A stretch of DNA of 64,000 nt, taken from positions 1,162,001 through 1,226,000 of the forward strand of contig NZ_CP072913.1 in NCBI RefSeq assembly GCF_017968885.1, read 5' to 3'. How positions within the stretch are numbered: the stretch's first letter is position 1; each line of letters begins with the position of its first letter. Made by a program: the position numbers and the translations under genes. The DNA comes from Pseudomonas sp. Tri1 (lineage in GTDB: Bacteria; Pseudomonadota; Gammaproteobacteria; Pseudomonadales; Pseudomonadaceae). Below, piece by piece: positions 17,684 through 24,409 of this stretch. The notes under the pieces are model-generated. The model did not search any database. It saw nothing but the letters and a program-made list of their open reading frames with translations, and was not told the origin of the DNA.

Positions 17684-18832
17684 ATGATCACCAGCAAGTT
17701 GCCGAATGTCGGCATCACTATTTTCACCCAGATGTCCCAGCTCGCCGCGCAGACCGGCGCGCTCAATCTGTCCCAGGGGTTTCCCGATTTCGATGGTCCG
17801 CAGGCCCTGCGCGATGCAGTCGGCCGGCATATCGCCCAAGGCCATAACCAATACTCGCCCATGACCGGTTTGCCGGCGCTGCGCCAGCAGATCGCGGCGA
17901 AGATCGCCCGCAGTTACGGCGCCAGCGTCGATGCCGATCAAGAAGTGACCGTGACTCCCGGCGCGACCCAGGCGATTTTCTGTGCCATTGCGGCGGTGGT
18001 TCACAGCGGCGACGAAGTGATCGTGTTCGACCCTTGCTATGACAGTTACGAGCCGGCGGTGCAGTTGGCCGGCGGGCGTTGCGTGCATGTGCAGTTGGGC
18101 CTGGATGACTTCGCCATCGATTTCCAGAGGCTCAGCGAAGCGTTGAGCCCGCGTACGCGGATGATCATCCTCAATAGCCCCCACAATCCCAGTGGCGCCC
18201 TGATCAGTCGCGCCGAACTGGATCAACTGGCGGCACTGATTCGCGACCGCGACATTTACCTGATCAGCGACGAGGTCTACGAACACCTGGTGTTCGACGG
18301 CGTCGCCCACGCCAGCGTCCTGGCCCATGAAGAGCTGTATCGGCGGGCCTTCGTGGTCAGCTCGTTCGGCAAGACCTACCACGTCACCGGCTGGAAAACC
18401 GGCTACGTGGTGGCGCCAGCGGCCCTGACGGCGGAGCTGCGCAAGGTGCATCAATACGTCAGCTTCTGCGGCGTGACGCCGTTGCAATACGCCCTGGCCG
18501 ACTACATGGCCGAGCATCCGGAGCATGTCGAAGAATTGCCGGATTTCTACCAGGCCAAGCGCGACCTGTTCTGCGATCTACTGGCGCCGTCGCGGTTCAG
18601 CTTCAAGCGAGTGACCGGTACTTATTTCCAGTTGGTGGATTATTCGCAAATCCGTCCGGACCTGAATGACGTCGACATGGCGGTATGGATGACCCGTGAG
18701 CACGGCGTGGCGACGATCCCAGTCTCGGTGTTCTACCAGAACCCACCCGAAGGCCAGCGCCTGGTGCGCCTGTGCTTTGCCAAGCGCGAGGAGACGCTGC
18801 GTGAAGCGGCGGAAAAACTATGCGTGATCTGA
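17684..18832 (+). CDS. Methionine-type PLP aminotransferase (YbdL/KAT family)
   Basis: Fold-type I aminotransferase of 382 residues, close to E. coli YbdL (methionine aminotransferase) and glutamine transaminase K. The PLP lysine is at about residue 230 in SSFGKTYHVTGWK; NSPHNPSG and the C-terminal RLCFAKREETL arginine motif are present. ATG 17684 gives MITSKLPNVGITIFTQMS. It overlaps the omega-amidase gene by 13 bases. Together the pair fits methionine salvage: transamination of the keto acid with glutamine, then deamidation of the alpha-ketoglutaramate formed. Confidence 0.9.
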   Translation: MITSKLPNVGITIFTQMSQLAAQTGALNLSQGFPDFDGPQALRDAVGRHIAQGHNQYSPMTGLPALRQQIAAKIARSYGASVDADQEVTVTPGATQAIFCAIAAVVHSGDEVIVFDPCYDSYEPAVQLAGGRCVHVQLGLDDFAIDFQRLSEALSPRTRMIILNSPHNPSGALISRAELDQLAALIRDRDIYLISDEVYEHLVFDGVAHASVLAHEELYRRAFVVSSFGKTYHVTGWKTGYVVAPAALTAELRKVHQYVSFCGVTPLQYALADYMAEHPEHVEELPDFYQAKRDLFCDLLAPSRFSFKRVTGTYFQLVDYSQIRPDLNDVDMAVWMTREHGVATIPVSVFYQNPPEGQRLVRLCFAKREETLREAAEKLCVI

Positions 18833-19611
18833 CTGCGTTGCCCAACCTGAATGTGGCGCTGGTCCAGACCACCCTGGCCTGGCACGACCGCCAGGCCAAC
18901 CTGGAGCATTTCGAAGGTTTGCTTGCACAGGCGCGTGGCGCGGACCTGATCATCCTGCCGGAAATGTTCACCACGGGGTTTTCCATGGAGTCCGAGCGCC
19001 TGGCGGAGCCGGAGCACGGCCCTGCGCACAAGTGGCTCAAGGCCCAGGCGGCGAAGCTGGACGCGGTCATCACCGGTAGTGTGATCATTCAGGCGGCGGA
19101 CGGCAGCCACCGCAATCGTCTGCTCTGGGCGCGCCCGGACGGCGAGGTATTGCATTACGACAAGCGCCATCTGTTTCGCATGGCCGGGGAGCACAACCAT
19201 TACACGCCGGGCGAGCGCCAGGTGCTGTTCGAACTCAAGGGCTGGCGCATTCGCCCGCTGATTTGCTACGACCTGCGCTTCCCGGTCTGGAGCCGTGACG
19301 CCGAGGACACCGACCTGTTGCTGTACACCGCCAACTGGCCAGGCGCCCGGCGCCAGCATTGGAATCGGCTGCTGCCGGCCCGGGCAATCGAGAACCTGTG
19401 CTACGTGGCGGCAGTGAACCGCATCGGCACCGACGGCAAGGGTTTCGCCTACACCGGTGATAGTCAGGTGCTGGATTTCCAGGGCGAGACTCTGCTCAGT
19501 GCCGGCGAGGCAGACGGGGTGTTCACGGTGTGCTTGAACGCGGTGGACCTGGCAGCGTATCGGGCGCGGTTTCCGGCGAACCTGGATGCCGACCGCTTCG
19601 AATTCATCTGA
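18820..19611 (+). CDS. Omega-amidase, nitrilase superfamily (YafV-like)
   Basis: Carbon-nitrogen hydrolase of 263 residues with the Glu-Lys-Cys triad: E48 in ILPEMF, K115 in YDKRHLF and C149 in LICYDLRF. These motifs are those of Nit2/YafV omega-amidases, which convert alpha-ketoglutaramate to alpha-ketoglutarate and ammonia. The gene overlaps the aminotransferase stop by 13 bases, strong evidence for a shared role. Substrate is inferred from family and context. Confidence 0.9.
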   Translation: MRDLTALPNLNVALVQTTLAWHDRQANLEHFEGLLAQARGADLIILPEMFTTGFSMESERLAEPEHGPAHKWLKAQAAKLDAVITGSVIIQAADGSHRNRLLWARPDGEVLHYDKRHLFRMAGEHNHYTPGERQVLFELKGWRIRPLICYDLRFPVWSRDAEDTDLLLYTANWPGARRQHWNRLLPARAIENLCYVAAVNRIGTDGKGFAYTGDSQVLDFQGETLLSAGEADGVFTVCLNAVDLAAYRARFPANLDADRFEFI

Positions 19612-19678
19612 TTGAAACGATTCAGCCCTTCAGGAACGGGATTGGATGCCGATAAACGGTCAGCCAAGGAGAATGCTC

Positions 19679-20095
19679 ATGACCAGTATCAGCGCAACCA
19701 CCGTCAACCCGTACCCGATGTCAGCCTCTAAAGTTTCTATCAAGGGGGCGGAAGAAGAGAAAACGGTCAGTCCTGTCGCCGCGACTGAAACTGATGATGA
19801 CAAAGACAAGACACTACAGGTCGACACTCGTGGCGCAAACGTCGCCGGCGCGGGTGCCGAGACGGGTGACAGCACCATCGAGCAGTTGAAGAAGCAGATC
19901 GAGCAGGCCGAAAAACTACTGGCCCAGCAGCAAGCCCAACTGGCCCGCGTGCAGAAGAGCCAAGCCAGCGAAGAGCAGAAAGCCCAGCAGGCGATGGCTC
20001 TCCAGACCCAGATCATGGGCACCCAGGCGACGCTGCAAACCCTGCGGGCGTCGCTGTTGCAAGCGATGACAGTCTCGATTGATACCCATGCCTGA
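19679..20095 (+). CDS. Hypothetical small coiled-coil protein
   Basis: Protein of 138 residues not assigned to a named family. It is polar and Gln/Lys-rich, with a predicted coiled coil over about residues 60-120 (IEQLKKQIEQAEKLLAQQQ). No signal peptide or membrane segment is evident. ATG 19679 is chosen because AAGGAG lies seven bases upstream; ATG 19673 and 19646 are in frame but badly spaced. It ends 43 bases before the IS110 element. The layout resembles small FlxA-like proteins of pseudomonads, but this is only a resemblance. Confidence 0.75.
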   Translation: MTSISATTVNPYPMSASKVSIKGAEEEKTVSPVAATETDDDKDKTLQVDTRGANVAGAGAETGDSTIEQLKKQIEQAEKLLAQQQAQLARVQKSQASEEQKAQQAMALQTQIMGTQATLQTLRASLLQAMTVSIDTHA

Positions 20096-20120
20096 CATCT
20101 CGGTTGCCTGACAGGCCGCC

Positions 20121-20138
20121 ATCGCGAGCAAGCTCGCT
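20121..20138. repeat. Left half of a REP interrupted by the IS110 element
   Basis: ATCGCGAGCAAGCTCGCT is the left part of a standard REP. The expected continuation CCCAC is found 1169 bases later at 21308. The break falls after a CT dinucleotide that is repeated at the far end of the element. Confidence 0.92.
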
Positions 20139-20160
20139 TGTATGTTTAGACTTGAAGGGG

Positions 20161-20300
20161 TGGGCGGGACTAAAAGCTCGATTCCGACTCTAGCCAGTAC
20201 GGACCGTGGGAGACTTCTCGTTCCGCCCTTTCTACCTAAAGCGCCGATAAGGAATTCATCGGTAAAACCGACGATAGAGGCAAGCCAGCGCAAAGGTAGA
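20161..20300 (+). ncRNA. Predicted IS110 bridge (seek) RNA
   Basis: The left non-coding end can fold into two hairpins with internal loops. Loop 1: outer stem 20162-20169 with 20221-20228 (8 pairs, one G-U) and inner stem 20183-20186 with 20200-20203. Its 5' side AAGCTCG (20174-20180) equals the target left of the core, and its 3' side GTGGGAG (20206-20212) is the reverse complement of CTCCCAC, core plus right target. Loop 2: outer stem TCTACCT / AGGTAGA (20231-20237 with 20294-20300) and inner stem TCGGT / ACCGA (20259-20263 with 20267-20271). Its GGAATTC (20251) and AGGCAAG (20278) fit the element's right and left ends with wobbles. Transcript limits are inferred. Confidence 0.75.
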
Positions 20301-20339
20301 CCCCGACAAGCACCTAAACCCTAGCTCCGAGGATTCGTC

Positions 20340-21302
20340 ATGACAATCCTTAACTCACCAACGGTTATTGGTATCGATGTAGCGAAGGCCGAAATCGTCG
20401 TTTACCGCGAAGACCTGAAAATCACTCAAGCCATCGCCAACAATCGCGAAGCTCTTGGCCGGTGGCTCAAAACGCTACCAGCCCAAAGCTCGATTGCGCT
20501 GGAAGCCACCAGTTTTTATCACCTGGACACAGCTGAGCTGGCCCATGGAATGGGGTTTCATGTTTACGTTGTGGATCCTTATCGGGTGGCCCATTACCGT
20601 GAAAGTATTGGGCTGCGGGCTAAAACTGATCCTTGTGATGCGCGTTTGCTGGCTCGTTATCTAACGAACGAGCAAGCAAGGCTGCGTATCTGGAGCCCAC
20701 CTCCAGAAGCCTACAAAGTGTTAAAAAACCTGCTTAGAAAACGTGCGGCACTCATCAAGGCCCGTGTCAGTATCGTGCTGAGTTTTTCGAACGAACCGTG
20801 CCTAAAGGACATCTTGGCCCGGCAGTTGGAGGTCTTCAAAGAGTCCGATCAGGCCATTCAGAAGCTAATGCGTGAGGCCAGCCAAGCGGTAGGGATCACT
20901 GAAAACATCAACCGCTGCAAAGCCATTGAAGGGATTGGTGAACTGACGGCCATTGGCTTGGCGACCGCATTCATGCGCGGTCACTTTGTCAGTGGCGATG
21001 CATTCATTGCTTTCTTGGGGATGGATTTGCGTCCAAAAGACTCAGGGAAGAAGCACAGTCCTCGTCACTTGAGCAAAAAAGGGGACGGGGAGCTACGACG
21101 CCTGGCGCACAACGCCGCGATGGCGGCCTGTCGGTCTCCTGCCTGGAAACCTTACTATGAGGCCTTCTTGGCACGAGGCCTGGCCAGAACTCAGGCCTTG
21201 GTTATCCTTGCCCGCAAGTTGTGTCGGGTAGCATTCGCCCTGATGAAAAATCAGAGCGAATACCAACCAAATTCACGGTTGCAGGGTTCCCCTGCAACAT
21301 AG
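20340..21302 (+). CDS. IS110-family DEDD transposase/recombinase
   Basis: Recombinase of 320 residues that acts with a bridge RNA to excise and insert the element. The RuvC-like DEDD residues are D13 (IGIDVAKAE), E55 (ALEATSFY), D97 and D100 (KTDPCDARLLARY). The C-terminal transposase_20 domain has IEGIGELTAIGLATAF, and the catalytic-serine region is GMDLRPKDSGKK. ATG 20340 follows a GAGGA ribosome binding site. Codon use and GC are lower than in the neighbours, as expected for mobile DNA. The reading frame is complete, so the protein may be functional. Confidence 0.93.
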   Translation: MTILNSPTVIGIDVAKAEIVVYREDLKITQAIANNREALGRWLKTLPAQSSIALEATSFYHLDTAELAHGMGFHVYVVDPYRVAHYRESIGLRAKTDPCDARLLARYLTNEQARLRIWSPPPEAYKVLKNLLRKRAALIKARVSIVLSFSNEPCLKDILARQLEVFKESDQAIQKLMREASQAVGITENINRCKAIEGIGELTAIGLATAFMRGHFVSGDAFIAFLGMDLRPKDSGKKHSPRHLSKKGDGELRRLAHNAAMAACRSPAWKPYYEAFLARGLARTQALVILARKLCRVAFALMKNQSEYQPNSRLQGSPAT

Positions 21303-21307
21303 AATCT

Positions 21308-21368
21308 CCCACATTTGATCTGTGTTCACCGCAGATCCAGTGTGGGAGCGAGCTTGCTCGCGATGAGG
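21308..21368. repeat. Right half of the interrupted REP plus its inverted partner
   Basis: CCCAC at 21308-21312 completes the REP broken by the IS. An inverted full REP (TGTGGGAGCGAGCTTGCTCG at 21341-21360) follows, so the element sits inside the left member of a REP pair. Confidence 0.9.
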
Positions 21369-21401
21369 CCGGAACAGCCAGCGCAATAATATCAGCGAAA
21401 C

Positions 21402-21436
21402 AAAAAGGCCCCAGGGTTCACACCCCGGGGCCTTTT
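21402..21436 (-). terminator. leuA terminator
   Basis: On the minus strand AAAAGGCCCCGGGG pairs with CCCTGGGGCCTTTTT, followed by a T-rich tail. It lies directly after the leuA stop. The plus-strand reading could also stop transcripts leaving the IS110 gene. Confidence 0.85.
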
Positions 21437-21452
21437 GCATTTCATCAGAGGA

Positions 21453-23132
21453 TCAGGCCGCCTTGGCTTCCGGCTGGCTCAGCGAGCGGTTCAGCGCGCT
21501 GAACAGGGCCTTGAAGCTGGCGGTGGTGATGTTTTCGTCAATGCCTACGCCGTGCACCGCACGCTCACCGTTGACCCGCAGTTCGATATACGCCGCAGCC
21601 TTGGCATTGGTGCCGGCGCCGATGGCGTGTTCGTTGTAGTCCATGATCTCCACTGGAATCGGCAACCCGGCCACCAGCGCCTCCAGTGCGCCGTTGCCCT
21701 TGCCGCGCCAGTGCAGGTTGGTTTCGCCCTGGCCCTTGCTGGCCACTTCCACTTCCACGGCGCTGTTGCCGTTTTCTTCCTGCAGGCGATGGCTGACCAG
21801 CGCGTACGGAGTGTTGGCTTGCAGGTATTCGCGTTGCAGCAGGCTGTGGATCTGCTGGGCGGTCATTTCCAGGCCCAGGCGATCGGTCTCGCGCTGTACC
21901 ACCTGGCTGAATTCGATCTGCATGCGGCGCGGCAGGCTGATGCCGTACTCCTGCTCCAGCAGGTAGGCGATACCGCCCTTGCCGGACTGGCTGTTGACCC
22001 GAATCACTGCCTCGTAGCTGCGGCCAATGTCGGCCGGGTCGATCGGCAGGTACGGCACTTCCCACAGCCCATCGGATTTCTGCTGTGCGAAACCTTTGCG
22101 GATGGCGTCCTGGTGCGAGCCGGAGAACGCGGTGTGAACCAGGTCGCCCACGTACGGATGACGCGGGTGCACCGGGATCTGGTTGCACTCTTCGACCACT
22201 TTGCGCACGCCGTCGATGTCGGAGAAATCCAGCTCAGGGTCGATGCCCTGGGTGTAGAGGTTCAGTGCTACGGTCACCAGGTCGACGTTGCCGGTGCGCT
22301 CGCCGTTGCCGAACAGGCAGCCTTCGACACGGTCGGCGCCAGCCATCAGGCCCAGCTCGGTGGCCGCGACGCCAGTGCCACGGTCGTTGTGGGTGTGCAG
22401 GCTGATGATCACGCTGTCACGACGGGTGATGTTGCGACCGAACCATTCAATCTGGTCGGCGTAGATGTTCGGGGTGGCGACTTCCACGGTGGCCGGCAGG
22501 TTGAGGATCACCTTGCGCTCAGGCGTCGGGTTCCACACTTCGATCACCGCGTCGCAGACTTCCTTGGCGAACTCCAGCTCGGTGGCGCTGAAGGTTTCTG
22601 GCGAGTACTCGAACTGCCACTGGGTTTCTGGCTGCTGCGCGGCGTATTTGACGAACAGCTTGGCCGCGTTCACCGCGATTTCCTTCACGCCTTCCTTGTC
22701 CTGGTTGAACACGATGCGGCGGAACGACGGGCTGGTGGCGTTGTACAGGTGGACGATGGCTTTTTTCGCCCCGTGCAGGGATTCGAAGGTACGGGCGATC
22801 AGGTCTTCACGAGCCTGGGTCAACACCTGGATGGTGGTGTCGTCCGGGATGTGGCCTTCTTCGATGAGGGTGCGCACGAAGTCGAAATCGGTCTGCGAAG
22901 CCGCCGGGAACGATGCTTCGATTTCCTTGACGCCCACGGCCACCAGGGTTTTCCAGAAGCGCAGTTTTTTCACCGCGTCCATTGGCTCGATCAGCGACTG
23001 GTTGCCGTCGCGCAGGTCGGAACTGCACCAGATCGGCGCGGCGGTGATGGTCTTCGACGGCCAGGTGCGATCCGGCAGGTTGATGGTCGGGAAGGCGCGG
23101 TATTTGGAAGACGGGTCTTTGAGCATGCTCAT
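21453..23132 (-). CDS. leuA: 2-isopropylmalate synthase LeuA
   Basis: First enzyme of leucine synthesis: condenses acetyl-CoA with 2-ketoisovalerate. Length is 559 residues, the long type. The HMGL-like barrel has [11 protein letters not shown] near residue 40 and the metal-binding [11 protein letters not shown] and GNGERTGN motifs; the C-terminal third is the LeuA allosteric domain that binds leucine. ATG 23132 ([14 protein letters not shown]) follows AAGGATTCCTCCG. A candidate leader peptide is encoded 92 bases upstream and a terminator follows the stop. Confidence 0.97.
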
Positions 23133-23223
23133 CGGAGGAATCCTTATTGTCGTGGCCGGAAAGAGGCGGCCTGCCGGTGGTTCGAATGGGGTTGGCTTCA
23201 GAGCCGGAGCGAGGTGCCGCGAT

Positions 23224-23301
23224 TCAGCCCGGCAGTCGTGCGCTGACGAGGCACAGGCTGCGATGCTGGCGAAGCTGGATGAGGGTGTGAGAGGTTTTCA
23301 T
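23224..23301 (-). CDS. Candidate leuA leader peptide
   Basis: A 25-codon ORF reading [20 protein letters not shown] then ARLPG, ending 91 bases before the leuA ATG on the same strand. AGGG and GAGGG lie just upstream of the ATG. Five of 25 residues are leucine and four are arginine. A short GC-rich stem (GGCCG / CGGCC) can form between it and leuA, but no clear T-run terminator follows, so if it regulates, translation-dependent control is as likely as classic attenuation. The call rests on position, start signal and composition. Confidence 0.55.
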
Positions 23302-23477
23302 GCCCTCAACCCTAACCGCGTGAGGGGCGGATCGCAAGCAGTCGGGAAAAATTGAGAGAAGTTCTGTTTTTGGAAGGGTTTGCGAGATTTAATCGCGTGT
23401 TATTGGGGGATTTGTAGTTTTATTGCGTCGATGTTTGTAGCTCGGCAATCCATGGGGAGGTGGTGATGCTACTCCCG

Positions 23478-23567
23478 TCATCGCGAGCAAGCTCGCTCCC
23501 ACAGGTACAGCGGCGTTTTTCAGAACGCCGAAATACCCATGGGGGAGCGAGCCTGTTCGCGAAGAGG
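23478..23567. repeat. REP pair between M23 peptidase gene and leuA
   Basis: CATCGCGAGCAAGCTCGCTC at 23479 and an inverted, slightly diverged copy GGGGGAGCGAGCCTGTTCGC at 23541. The rest of 23302-23587 shows no convincing gene; it probably holds the leuA promoter. Confidence 0.88.
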
Positions 23568-23587
23568 CCAGTAGCCTTGCGCAAGGC

Positions 23588-24409
23588 TCAGGGCTGAAAC
23601 GCCCCAATGAAAATCGCCGGATCCACCCGCGCATCGTTCAGACTGATGTTCCAGTGCATGTGCGGCCCGGTCGCCCGGCCGGTGGCGCCGACCTTGCCCA
23701 CCACCGTGCCGCGGGCCAGTTGCTGGCCGACCTTCACGTCGATCTTCGACATGTGGCAGAACATGCTGATGAAGCCTTGGCCGTGATCGACGAATACCGT
23801 GTTGCCATTGAAGAAGTAATTGCCGGTGAGGATCACTTTGCCGGCGGCCGGGGTCTTGATCGGCGTGCCGGCGGGCACGGCGAAGTCCAGGCCGGCGTGG
23901 GGGTTGCGTTCTTCGCCGTTGAAGAACCGACGCACGCCGAACTTGCTCGACAGCGGGCCGTTGACCGGTTTGTCCAGCAGCAGGTTGCTGGGGATGTTCG
24001 GGCTGAAGCTGCGGTAGGCCTTCAGTTGCACGGCCAGTTCGGCGTCGATGCGCTTGAGGTCTGCCGGGTTTGGGTTGACCTGGCGTTTATTCTTCAGGGT
24101 GATGTGTTGTTCCGGGTACTTTTTATAGCCGACCACGAACGGCTGGGTGCTGCCGCCACTGCTGATCTGCTGGGTGCCGGGTTGAACTGTCAGCGGGATG
24201 CCGACAATCGCCAGCCAGTTGTCCTGCTCCTTGACCACCAGCACCGGTTTGCCCTGGTAACTGGCTTTCGGCGCCTTGGCCGCGCTGCCCAGGTCCACCA
24301 CGGCCACGCCGCCGGGCACCGGTTTGTTCAACAGGCGGCTGATGTAGCTGTCGGCGTGGGCGTTGAAGGTCAGGCACAGCAGGAGCAATGGGGCGAGATA
24401 TCGCGGCAT
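23588..24409 (-). CDS. Periplasmic M23 (LytM-type) peptidase
   Basis: Protein of 273 residues with an N-terminal signal peptide (MPRYLAPLLLLCLTFNAHA) and a C-terminal LytM domain. The zinc-site motifs are HAGLDFAVP (HxxxD) and HMHWN (HxH), with an upstream histidine in MFCHMSK. The family cuts peptidoglycan cross-links and is often implicated in cell separation or envelope growth. It begins four bases after the xseA stop on the minus strand, so both are probably co-transcribed. Confidence 0.92.
   Translation of the reverse strand: MPRYLAPLLLLCLTFNAHADSYISRLLNKPVPGGVAVVDLGSAAKAPKASYQGKPVLVVKEQDNWLAIVGIPLTVQPGTQQISSGGSTQPFVVGYKKYPEQHITLKNKRQVNPNPADLKRIDAELAVQLKAYRSFSPNIPSNLLLDKPVNGPLSSKFGVRRFFNGEERNPHAGLDFAVPAGTPIKTPAAGKVILTGNYFFNGNTVFVDHGQGFISMFCHMSKIDVKVGQQLARGTVVGKVGATGRATGPHMHWNISLNDARVDPAIFIGAFQP

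Follow-up and report, generated by a model that had tools for sequence, protein, structure and literature searches.

Bridge RNAs of the IS110 family, together with their covariation with target and donor DNA, have been established with IS621 (PMC11208160, PMC11208158). As described in these papers, bridge RNA structures are diverse (Durrant et al., PMC11208160), ISPpu10 is among the six elements for which bridge-RNA guides were predicted (Durrant et al. 2024, PMC11208160), and mutation of D11, E60, D102, D105 and S241 in the IS621 recombinase abolished recombination (PMC11208158). ISPpu9 and ISPpu10 are reported to insert in REPs (PMC1525189), and a natural redirection has also been noted for the seekRNA elements (PMC11187229). 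Since the IS621 work established the mechanism and ISPpu10 guides have been predicted, the mechanism is already known, and the element described here adds a member. No paper on this particular element was found in the literature searched (one library).

The window, which is the whole stretch of 64,000 nucleotides analysed here from the genome of Pseudomonas sp. Tri1, contains an IS110-family insertion sequence of 1,171 bp, both CT cores included, on its forward strand. The left noncoding end of this element very probably encodes a bridge RNA that guides insertion into REPs, of the kind known from IS621 and ISPpu10, which is the best explanation of the whole. This reading is built from the element ends, the REP target, the guide matches, the covariation of guides with targets and of helices, and the conserved catalytic residues, all directly readable in the sequences compared. 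The features involved are as follows.

20130-20136, forward strand: left target (LT) AAGCTCG, left half of the interrupted REP (AAGCTCG in 8 of 9 copies, AGGCTCG in 1 of 9)
20137-21307, forward strand: IS110-family insertion sequence, CT core to CT core (nine own-genome copies of equal length)
20137-20138, forward strand: left CT core (sequence, copy comparison)
20141-20146, forward strand: -10-like box TATGTT of the expected circle-junction promoter (junction comparison)
20151-20310, forward strand: predicted bridge RNA, about 160 nt (start placed from the -10-like box, end from the closing helix)
20151-20310, forward strand: closing helix, 20151-20154 and 20157-20160 with 20301-20304 and 20307-20310
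20162-20228, forward strand: target-binding stem-loop, stem 20162-20170/20220-20228, inner stem 20183-20189/20196-20203
20174-20180, forward strand: left target guide (LTG) AAGCTCG (sequence match, covariation in relatives)
20206-20212, forward strand: right target guide (RTG) GTGGGAG, spanning the core and RT (sequence match, covariation)
20213, forward strand: candidate target-loop handshake base A, its partner being T, the last right-end base before the core
20232-20299, forward strand: donor-binding stem-loop, 20232-20237 and 20241-20244 with 20288-20291 and 20294-20299
20251-20257, forward strand: left donor guide (LDG) GGAATTC, fitting the right end AGAAT (sequence; covaries in the relative L158)
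20274-20284, forward strand: right donor guide (RDG) ATAGAGGCAAG, of which CAAG fits CTTG of the left end (sequence)
20285, forward strand: candidate donor-loop handshake base C, its partner being G, the last base of LT
20340-21302, forward strand: IS110 recombinase, 320 aa (Pfam, NCBIfam, alignment with IS621)
21306-21312, forward strand: right CT core and right target (RT), CTCCCAC, the core at 21306-21307 and then 21308-21312

The noncoding ends, 203 bp on the left and 5 bp on the right with the cores counted, have the long-left, short-right layout of the IS110 group. Assignment to the IS1111 group was rejected in view of the 5-bp right end and of the predicted RNA lying upstream of tnp, not downstream. 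Both Pfam PF01548 (DEDD_Tnp_IS110) and PF02371 (Transposase_20) match the recombinase over their cut-offs, and NCBIfam NF033542 (“IS110 family RNA-guided transposase”) gives 177 bits for a cut-off of 140. By sequence, its solved relatives are ISCro4 and IS621, the IS621 protein being remote (78 bits); D13, E55, D97, D100 and S235 align with D11, E60, D102, D105 and S241 of IS621. A DEDD/RuvC N-terminal domain, followed by a Transposase_20 C-terminal domain with the catalytic serine residue aligned, places the element in the IS110 family (IS110 group), as does its core-dinucleotide-specific insertion, nine of nine copies being at a REP CT. A search of plasmids and phages found no DNA match to the element; remote proteins (<60% identity) are present in 2,210 plasmid records.

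A palindrome, TTGCAGGG-TTC-CCCTGCAA, lies at 21279-21297, over the last recombinase codons and just before the right end, where it overlaps the expected -35. Some relatives, for instance L052 (TTTGGGGG/CCCCCAAA) and L070 (GTTGAGGG/CCCTCAAC), have other palindromes at the same place, and others, among them L054 and L151, have none; the palindrome might form a hairpin that serves to end the transcript or to mark the end of the element.

Nine full copies of the element are present in the 6.7-Mb genome (one contig), each of 1,171 bp, and all nine interrupt their REP at one and the same CT core and in one orientation (..AAGCTCG/CT..CT/CCCAC). Six are identical and the other three have three substitutions in common, a pattern suggestive of recent movement. 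This genome has 463 + 466 occurrences of the uninterrupted 14-mer AAGCTCGCTCCCAC (reversed control: 0) and 91 + 112 of its AGGCTCG version. With 929 AAGCTCG against 203 AGGCTCG sites on offer, the 8:1 ratio of insertions mirrors how common the sites are and is no sign of discrimination at guide position 2.

Several other features surround these copies. In the window, the element lies between a short ORF on the plus strand (19646-20095) and one on the minus strand (21453-23132), the latter being presumably a 2-isopropylmalate synthase gene. A second REP in inverse orientation (21341-21368) lies just 3' of the interrupted one, with the same target intact and unoccupied on the minus strand. Elsewhere in the genome, two REPs (L010, reverse strand, 4580986-4581034; L011, 4926368-4926427) carry no more than about 24-30 bases from the start of the left end (with a substitution in one case), followed by unrelated DNA, and the 3-kb loci contain no AGAATCT right end; they are probably what is left of deleted copies, and both break off near the same GGGG. 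Two Y1_Tnp (PF01797) proteins, encoded at 1706402-1706737 (L272) and 4971661-4971972 (L273), are possible REP-associated transposases. In another genome (G066, contig 45), two tandem copies 1,352 bp apart (L099, 124425-125351, and L100, 125777-126703) have identical left flanks.

Relatives were gathered from 298 genomes of the genus, 46 of which contain a homologue, and 369 genomes of the class, 17 of which do, own genome included in both cases, and from a named genome collection, of which 80 loci were kept out of 199. This gave 207 loci, window included. The left end is CTTGTATG in 194 of them, and 180 of the 194 also show an AG[A/G]ATCT right end in the range searched. The 13 loci without a usable left end comprise 12 lacking CTTGTATG (L159-L166, L212, L235, L236 and L264) and the incomplete L214. 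A further 14 have no right end in range and three (L157, L158, L167) no anchor, which leaves 177 rows in the fixed-register guide test. Because these rows include repeat fetches of the same copies, the statistics use distinct guides or distinct left ends; the sequences are akin to one another and unevenly sampled.

The earlier note on this DNA had recognised AAGCTCG as identical to the seven bases left of the CT core, and GTGGGAG as the reverse complement of core plus right target; both matches were confirmed in the sequence. Their role as bridge-RNA guides is further supported by the relatives, which sit at different sites and in which left guides covary with targets and a different right target goes with a different right guide. 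Left guides usually follow their sites, as with AAGCCAG, AAGCCGG, AAGCCCG and AGGCTCG, and also with AGCCGCC (G080), ATTCG (G018), AGTTCG (G094), and the guides TCCCTGG and TCCTTGG of L157 and L167. In a fixed register, with the commonest target taken for each of 25 distinct left guides, own pairing is 5.64 of 7 versus 4.08 when permuted (sd 0.20; 0 of 100,000 permutations), and identity 5.32 versus 3.38. The observed match at each of guide positions 2-6 was reached in 0 to 4 of 5,000 permutations; the signal at position 1 is weak (279 of 5,000), and position 7 varies too little to be judged in this way. The best match in the loop, for the 32 unique left ends of the first set, averages 6.51 versus 5.82 (0 of 20,000).

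In order to limit the effect of kinship, nearest-neighbour contrasts were drawn between relatives differing in both guide and target. Over 32 such contrasts, which are not fully independent since the same guide types recur, the own guide fits better than the swapped one in 24, worse in 3 and equally in 5; the guides of L157, L158 and L167 were placed by a pattern written post hoc, and two of the 24 favourable contrasts involve them. On the right side, RT CTCCCAC goes with RTG GTGGGAG in 56 of 56 unique left ends, and RT CTCCTAC with GTAGGAG in eight of nine (the RTG of L153 being GTAGGAG), the ninth, L219, being able to wobble; in L158, RT CTCGGCT goes with GAGCCGAG. The two sides of the target loop thus match opposite target strands and covary with the target, as expected of a bridge RNA.

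The fit is not perfect everywhere. Guide AGACTCG (16 rows) mismatches every observed target at one position and ATACCCG (3 rows) at two, AGCTCGT (14 rows) fits only with a one-base shift, and the RTG of G080, GTGAGAG, pairs at 6 of 7 positions with CTCCCAC. The guide fits the left flank poorly in L059, L061, L154 and L155. Insertion of the same left end at non-REP sites, which the earlier note had named as evidence against its reading, does occur, and is rare. In L061 (G186), whose right flank is normal, guide AAGCCCG faces an unmatched left flank, TTGGTAG; either insertion off target or rearrangement at a later time could account for this. Of three G018 copies retrieved, two lie in a sequence that does not resemble the canonical REP but ends in ATTCG, a match to the guide of that element.

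Could such matches be fortuitous? Single 7-mers are indeed not rare: in 50,000 dinucleotide-preserving shuffles of the left end, AAGCTCG appeared in 1,348 and GTGGGAG in 432, counted before any demand on position or order. Both together were found in only 6 of the 50,000, which agrees with the earlier view that a joint 7+7 match is unlikely by chance, and with the covariation of guides and targets across relatives the probability of a chance origin becomes negligible. Another explanation would be that the recombinase protein alone recognises the REP, the likeness of the left end being a captured or ancestral REP fragment. Element and REP do co-occur, and REP variants may be expected to correlate with host lineage. 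However, the likeness consists of two separate 7-mers in opposite sense, held at fixed places of the RNA fold, and not of a REP copy. Moreover, the guides change with the targets between left ends that are otherwise nearly alike: L148 and L134 differ by one base of 205 outside the guide, the difference between their targets falling at the same base as that between their guides, and the pairs L270/L259 and L231/L069 have left ends 98% and 93% alike. Recognition by the protein alone, which would also have to accommodate two Halomonas elements at quite different sites with a 7/7 guide fit (L219, AGCCTGG; L220, AGTTGCG), is therefore extremely unlikely.

The structured left end might also serve mainly as a 5' leader that regulates the transposase mRNA, a role proposed in the case of ISPpu9; its complementarity to the target would then be incidental. 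It lies directly upstream of the start codon, the 3' arm of the closing helix falls between donor loop and start codon, and ISPpu9 is described as having a 244-nt leader and two small RNAs (PMC8450116). Such a leader leaves the guide-target covariation on both target sides unexplained, and as the main function it is very unlikely; a second role as leader beside that of guide RNA is possible.

Turning to the structure of the putative bridge RNA, the element's left end in the window has a predicted folding energy of -66.1 kcal/mol (z -1.97), which 4 of 200 shuffles equal or better. The two target guides do lie in one internal loop, as the earlier note had it, but the stem counts given there, eight outer and four inner pairs, have to be revised to nine outer pairs (one G-U) and to 4+3 inner pairs around a one-base bulge. 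The perfect seven-pair stem claimed for the second loop was not reproduced, its place being taken by a four-pair GCGC stem and six pairs beyond an A-rich internal loop. The general plan of a target loop and a donor loop is supported by the covariation of guides with targets and of stems. Among 23 close relatives, 92.5% of cells are paired and 28 cells are two-sided, versus 8.6 when shuffled and at most 8 when slid. The number of pairs with two-sided change is unconvincing at this range (6 versus 3.9 shuffled; 26 of 500 as many), and there is no excess of pair types (11 further types versus 13.1 shuffled; 494 of 500).

A covariance model built from these 23 relatives found the RNA in 19 of 19 tested loci with CTTGTATG, with E-values of 1.5e-68 for L042 (whose left end is that of the window's element, a sequence included in the model) and 4e-37 to 5e-5 for the other 18. 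It matched neither of two plain REP loci and none of eight remote IS110 loci without the CTTGTATG left end, and gave faint matches to the left-end remnants L010 and L011 (0.0036 and 0.33). Over the 21 model matches, 36 of 47 pairs show two-sided change, with such pairs in each of the seven helices, and 131 cells are two-sided versus 34.4 shuffled and at most 21 slid. This alignment includes the two remnants and, being fitted to the structure, leans towards it, a bias answered by the slid controls. The weak RNAalifold result (30 pairs, 3 two-sided) stems from a MAFFT alignment of 32 left ends that misaligns the target stem between the two main clades. An Rfam search of 18000-24000 gave no match to the left end, its three hits below gathering score all lying elsewhere.

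The closing helix joins the segment before the target stem to the segment after the donor stem. It is invariant among the 23 close relatives; over the 21 model matches, 93.1% of its cells are paired and five of its eight pairs show two-sided change, and in L219 it extends to a run of 21 pairs. Across 18 clusters, its own energy is -30.6 versus -26.0 when the arms are swapped (0 of 20,000 permutations as low), own pairing being better than the swap mean in 14 of the 18, the exceptions being L045, L054, L157 and L217. In L045, which is the window's own cluster, 15 of 17 swaps are as good. L059 does not provide a fair comparison, since there is no donor loop in its left end; leaving it out gives 13 of 17 clusters and -30.8 versus -26.3 (0 of 20,000). 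L059 itself (G091:C1:3596876-3597781) has a left end of 127 bases in which the target loop is kept and the whole donor-binding stem-loop is missing, and is either a decayed copy or one needing a donor guide from elsewhere.

A 5' stem-loop ahead of the target loop is absent in the window's clade, the 5' region folding on itself at about -1 kcal/mol (L045, L202, L054). Distant relatives such as L151 and L153 do have one. This stem-loop was not treated as defining, because it belongs to the IS621 consensus and a diversity of structures is reported by Durrant et al. Relative to the known bridge RNAs, the closing helix is possibly a variant. In L151, L153, L154 and L155, a 5' stem-loop can be formed with the same strand as the closing helix, each excluding the other. 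It is conceivable, if rather doubtful, that the ISPpu10-like branch has closed its RNA into a three-way junction replacing the IS621 5' stem-loop, and that the exclusive forms in these four relatives could switch between guide RNA and transposase leader.

The junction sequences agree in part with the prediction of a circle-junction promoter. In 12 of the 22 junctions examined, a TATG[T/G]T box with 17-base spacing to its partner hexamer is among the two best pairs. The partners are TTGACC (L151, L157), TAGACA (L155), TTGAGG (L219), TTGATG/C (L054, L056), TTGTCC (L046), TTTACC (L045) and TTCCCC (L052, L064, L067, L070). The window has the poor TTCCCC, and two further weak pairs there equal or exceed its score.

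On the donor side, the earlier note had placed GGAATTC and AGGCAAG in the second loop, matching the element ends. GGAATTC (20251-20257) and the stretch ending in GGCAAG (to 20284) are indeed in that loop; GGAAT fits AGAAT with one wobble and CAAG fits CTTG, the RDG presumably pairing in a split manner as in IS621. These putative guides are placed from conserved matches and from one covarying relative, L158, which has right end AGGATCT and GGATCT in its donor loop; it is the sole covarying case because the element ends hardly vary. The two candidate handshake bases would fit the pairing described for IS621. Of 68 unique left ends, 63 have A directly after the RTG, and the base after the RDG is C opposite an LT ending in G in 64 of 67 rows counted. 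G080, which falls outside these tables with its right end beyond the search range, changes both handshake sides (LT ending in C, base G); G139 does not change both, having C against U, and L046 has a C,U mismatch.

By analogy with the known systems, the recombinase would excise the element as a circle, whose joined ends would form a promoter. Transcription from this junction through the left end would yield an RNA folding into a target loop and a donor loop, the latter pairing through GGAAU.. with the joined right end and through ..CAAG with the left end. The recombinase, with its RuvC DEDD and serine residues, would then exchange strands at the CT cores, the candidate handshake bases taking part, and so transfer the circle to a REP.

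What this locus and its relatives offer is a well-sampled natural series, in which one recombinase lineage appears to be re-aimed among REP types by a few guide bases, and a recombinase with more than 900 exact natural sites in its own Pseudomonas genome. The series makes the guide rules testable (wobble tolerance, weak position 1, right-guide compensation), as well as the role of the closing helix. Possible additions to the known kind are modest: the closing helix itself and the natural re-aiming of near-identical elements by guide changes.

Among the described systems, IS621 of E. coli has in common with the element a REP target, a CT core, a left-end RNA with target and donor loops, the order LTG-RTG-LDG-RDG and the DEDD and serine residues. 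The IS621 right donor, CTTGTAT as worked out from the pairs named in PMC11208158, is the same as the element's left end. The IS621 bridge RNA is described as starting with a 5' stem-loop (PMC11208160), whereas the window's clade has a helix closing the RNA around both loops; and four RTG bases pair in the IS621 structure as reported (PMC11208158), for seven contiguous matching bases here. ISPpu10 of P. putida KT2440 is likewise an IS110 element, for which seven of seven copies are reported to lie in REPs and to have a 2-bp repeat (Tobes and Pareja 2006, PMC1525189); a 67%-identical protein (P0099) bears that name in a source, and the likeness is drawn at this level, not guide by guide. ISPpu9 of P. 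putida shares the IS110 family, the REP insertion and a long structured 5' leader, and is described with antisense and downstream sRNAs, Asr9 and Ssr9 (PMC8450116), counterparts of which were sought in the window by Rfam only. In the seekRNAs of ISEc21 (IS110 type) and ISPa11 (IS1111 type), as reported, two short RNA stretches also choose the target, and in the window element as in ISEc21 the bottom-strand match precedes the top-strand match (PMC11187229). These elements stand on different branches, the ISPa11 RNA lying downstream of the transposase gene (PMC11187229).
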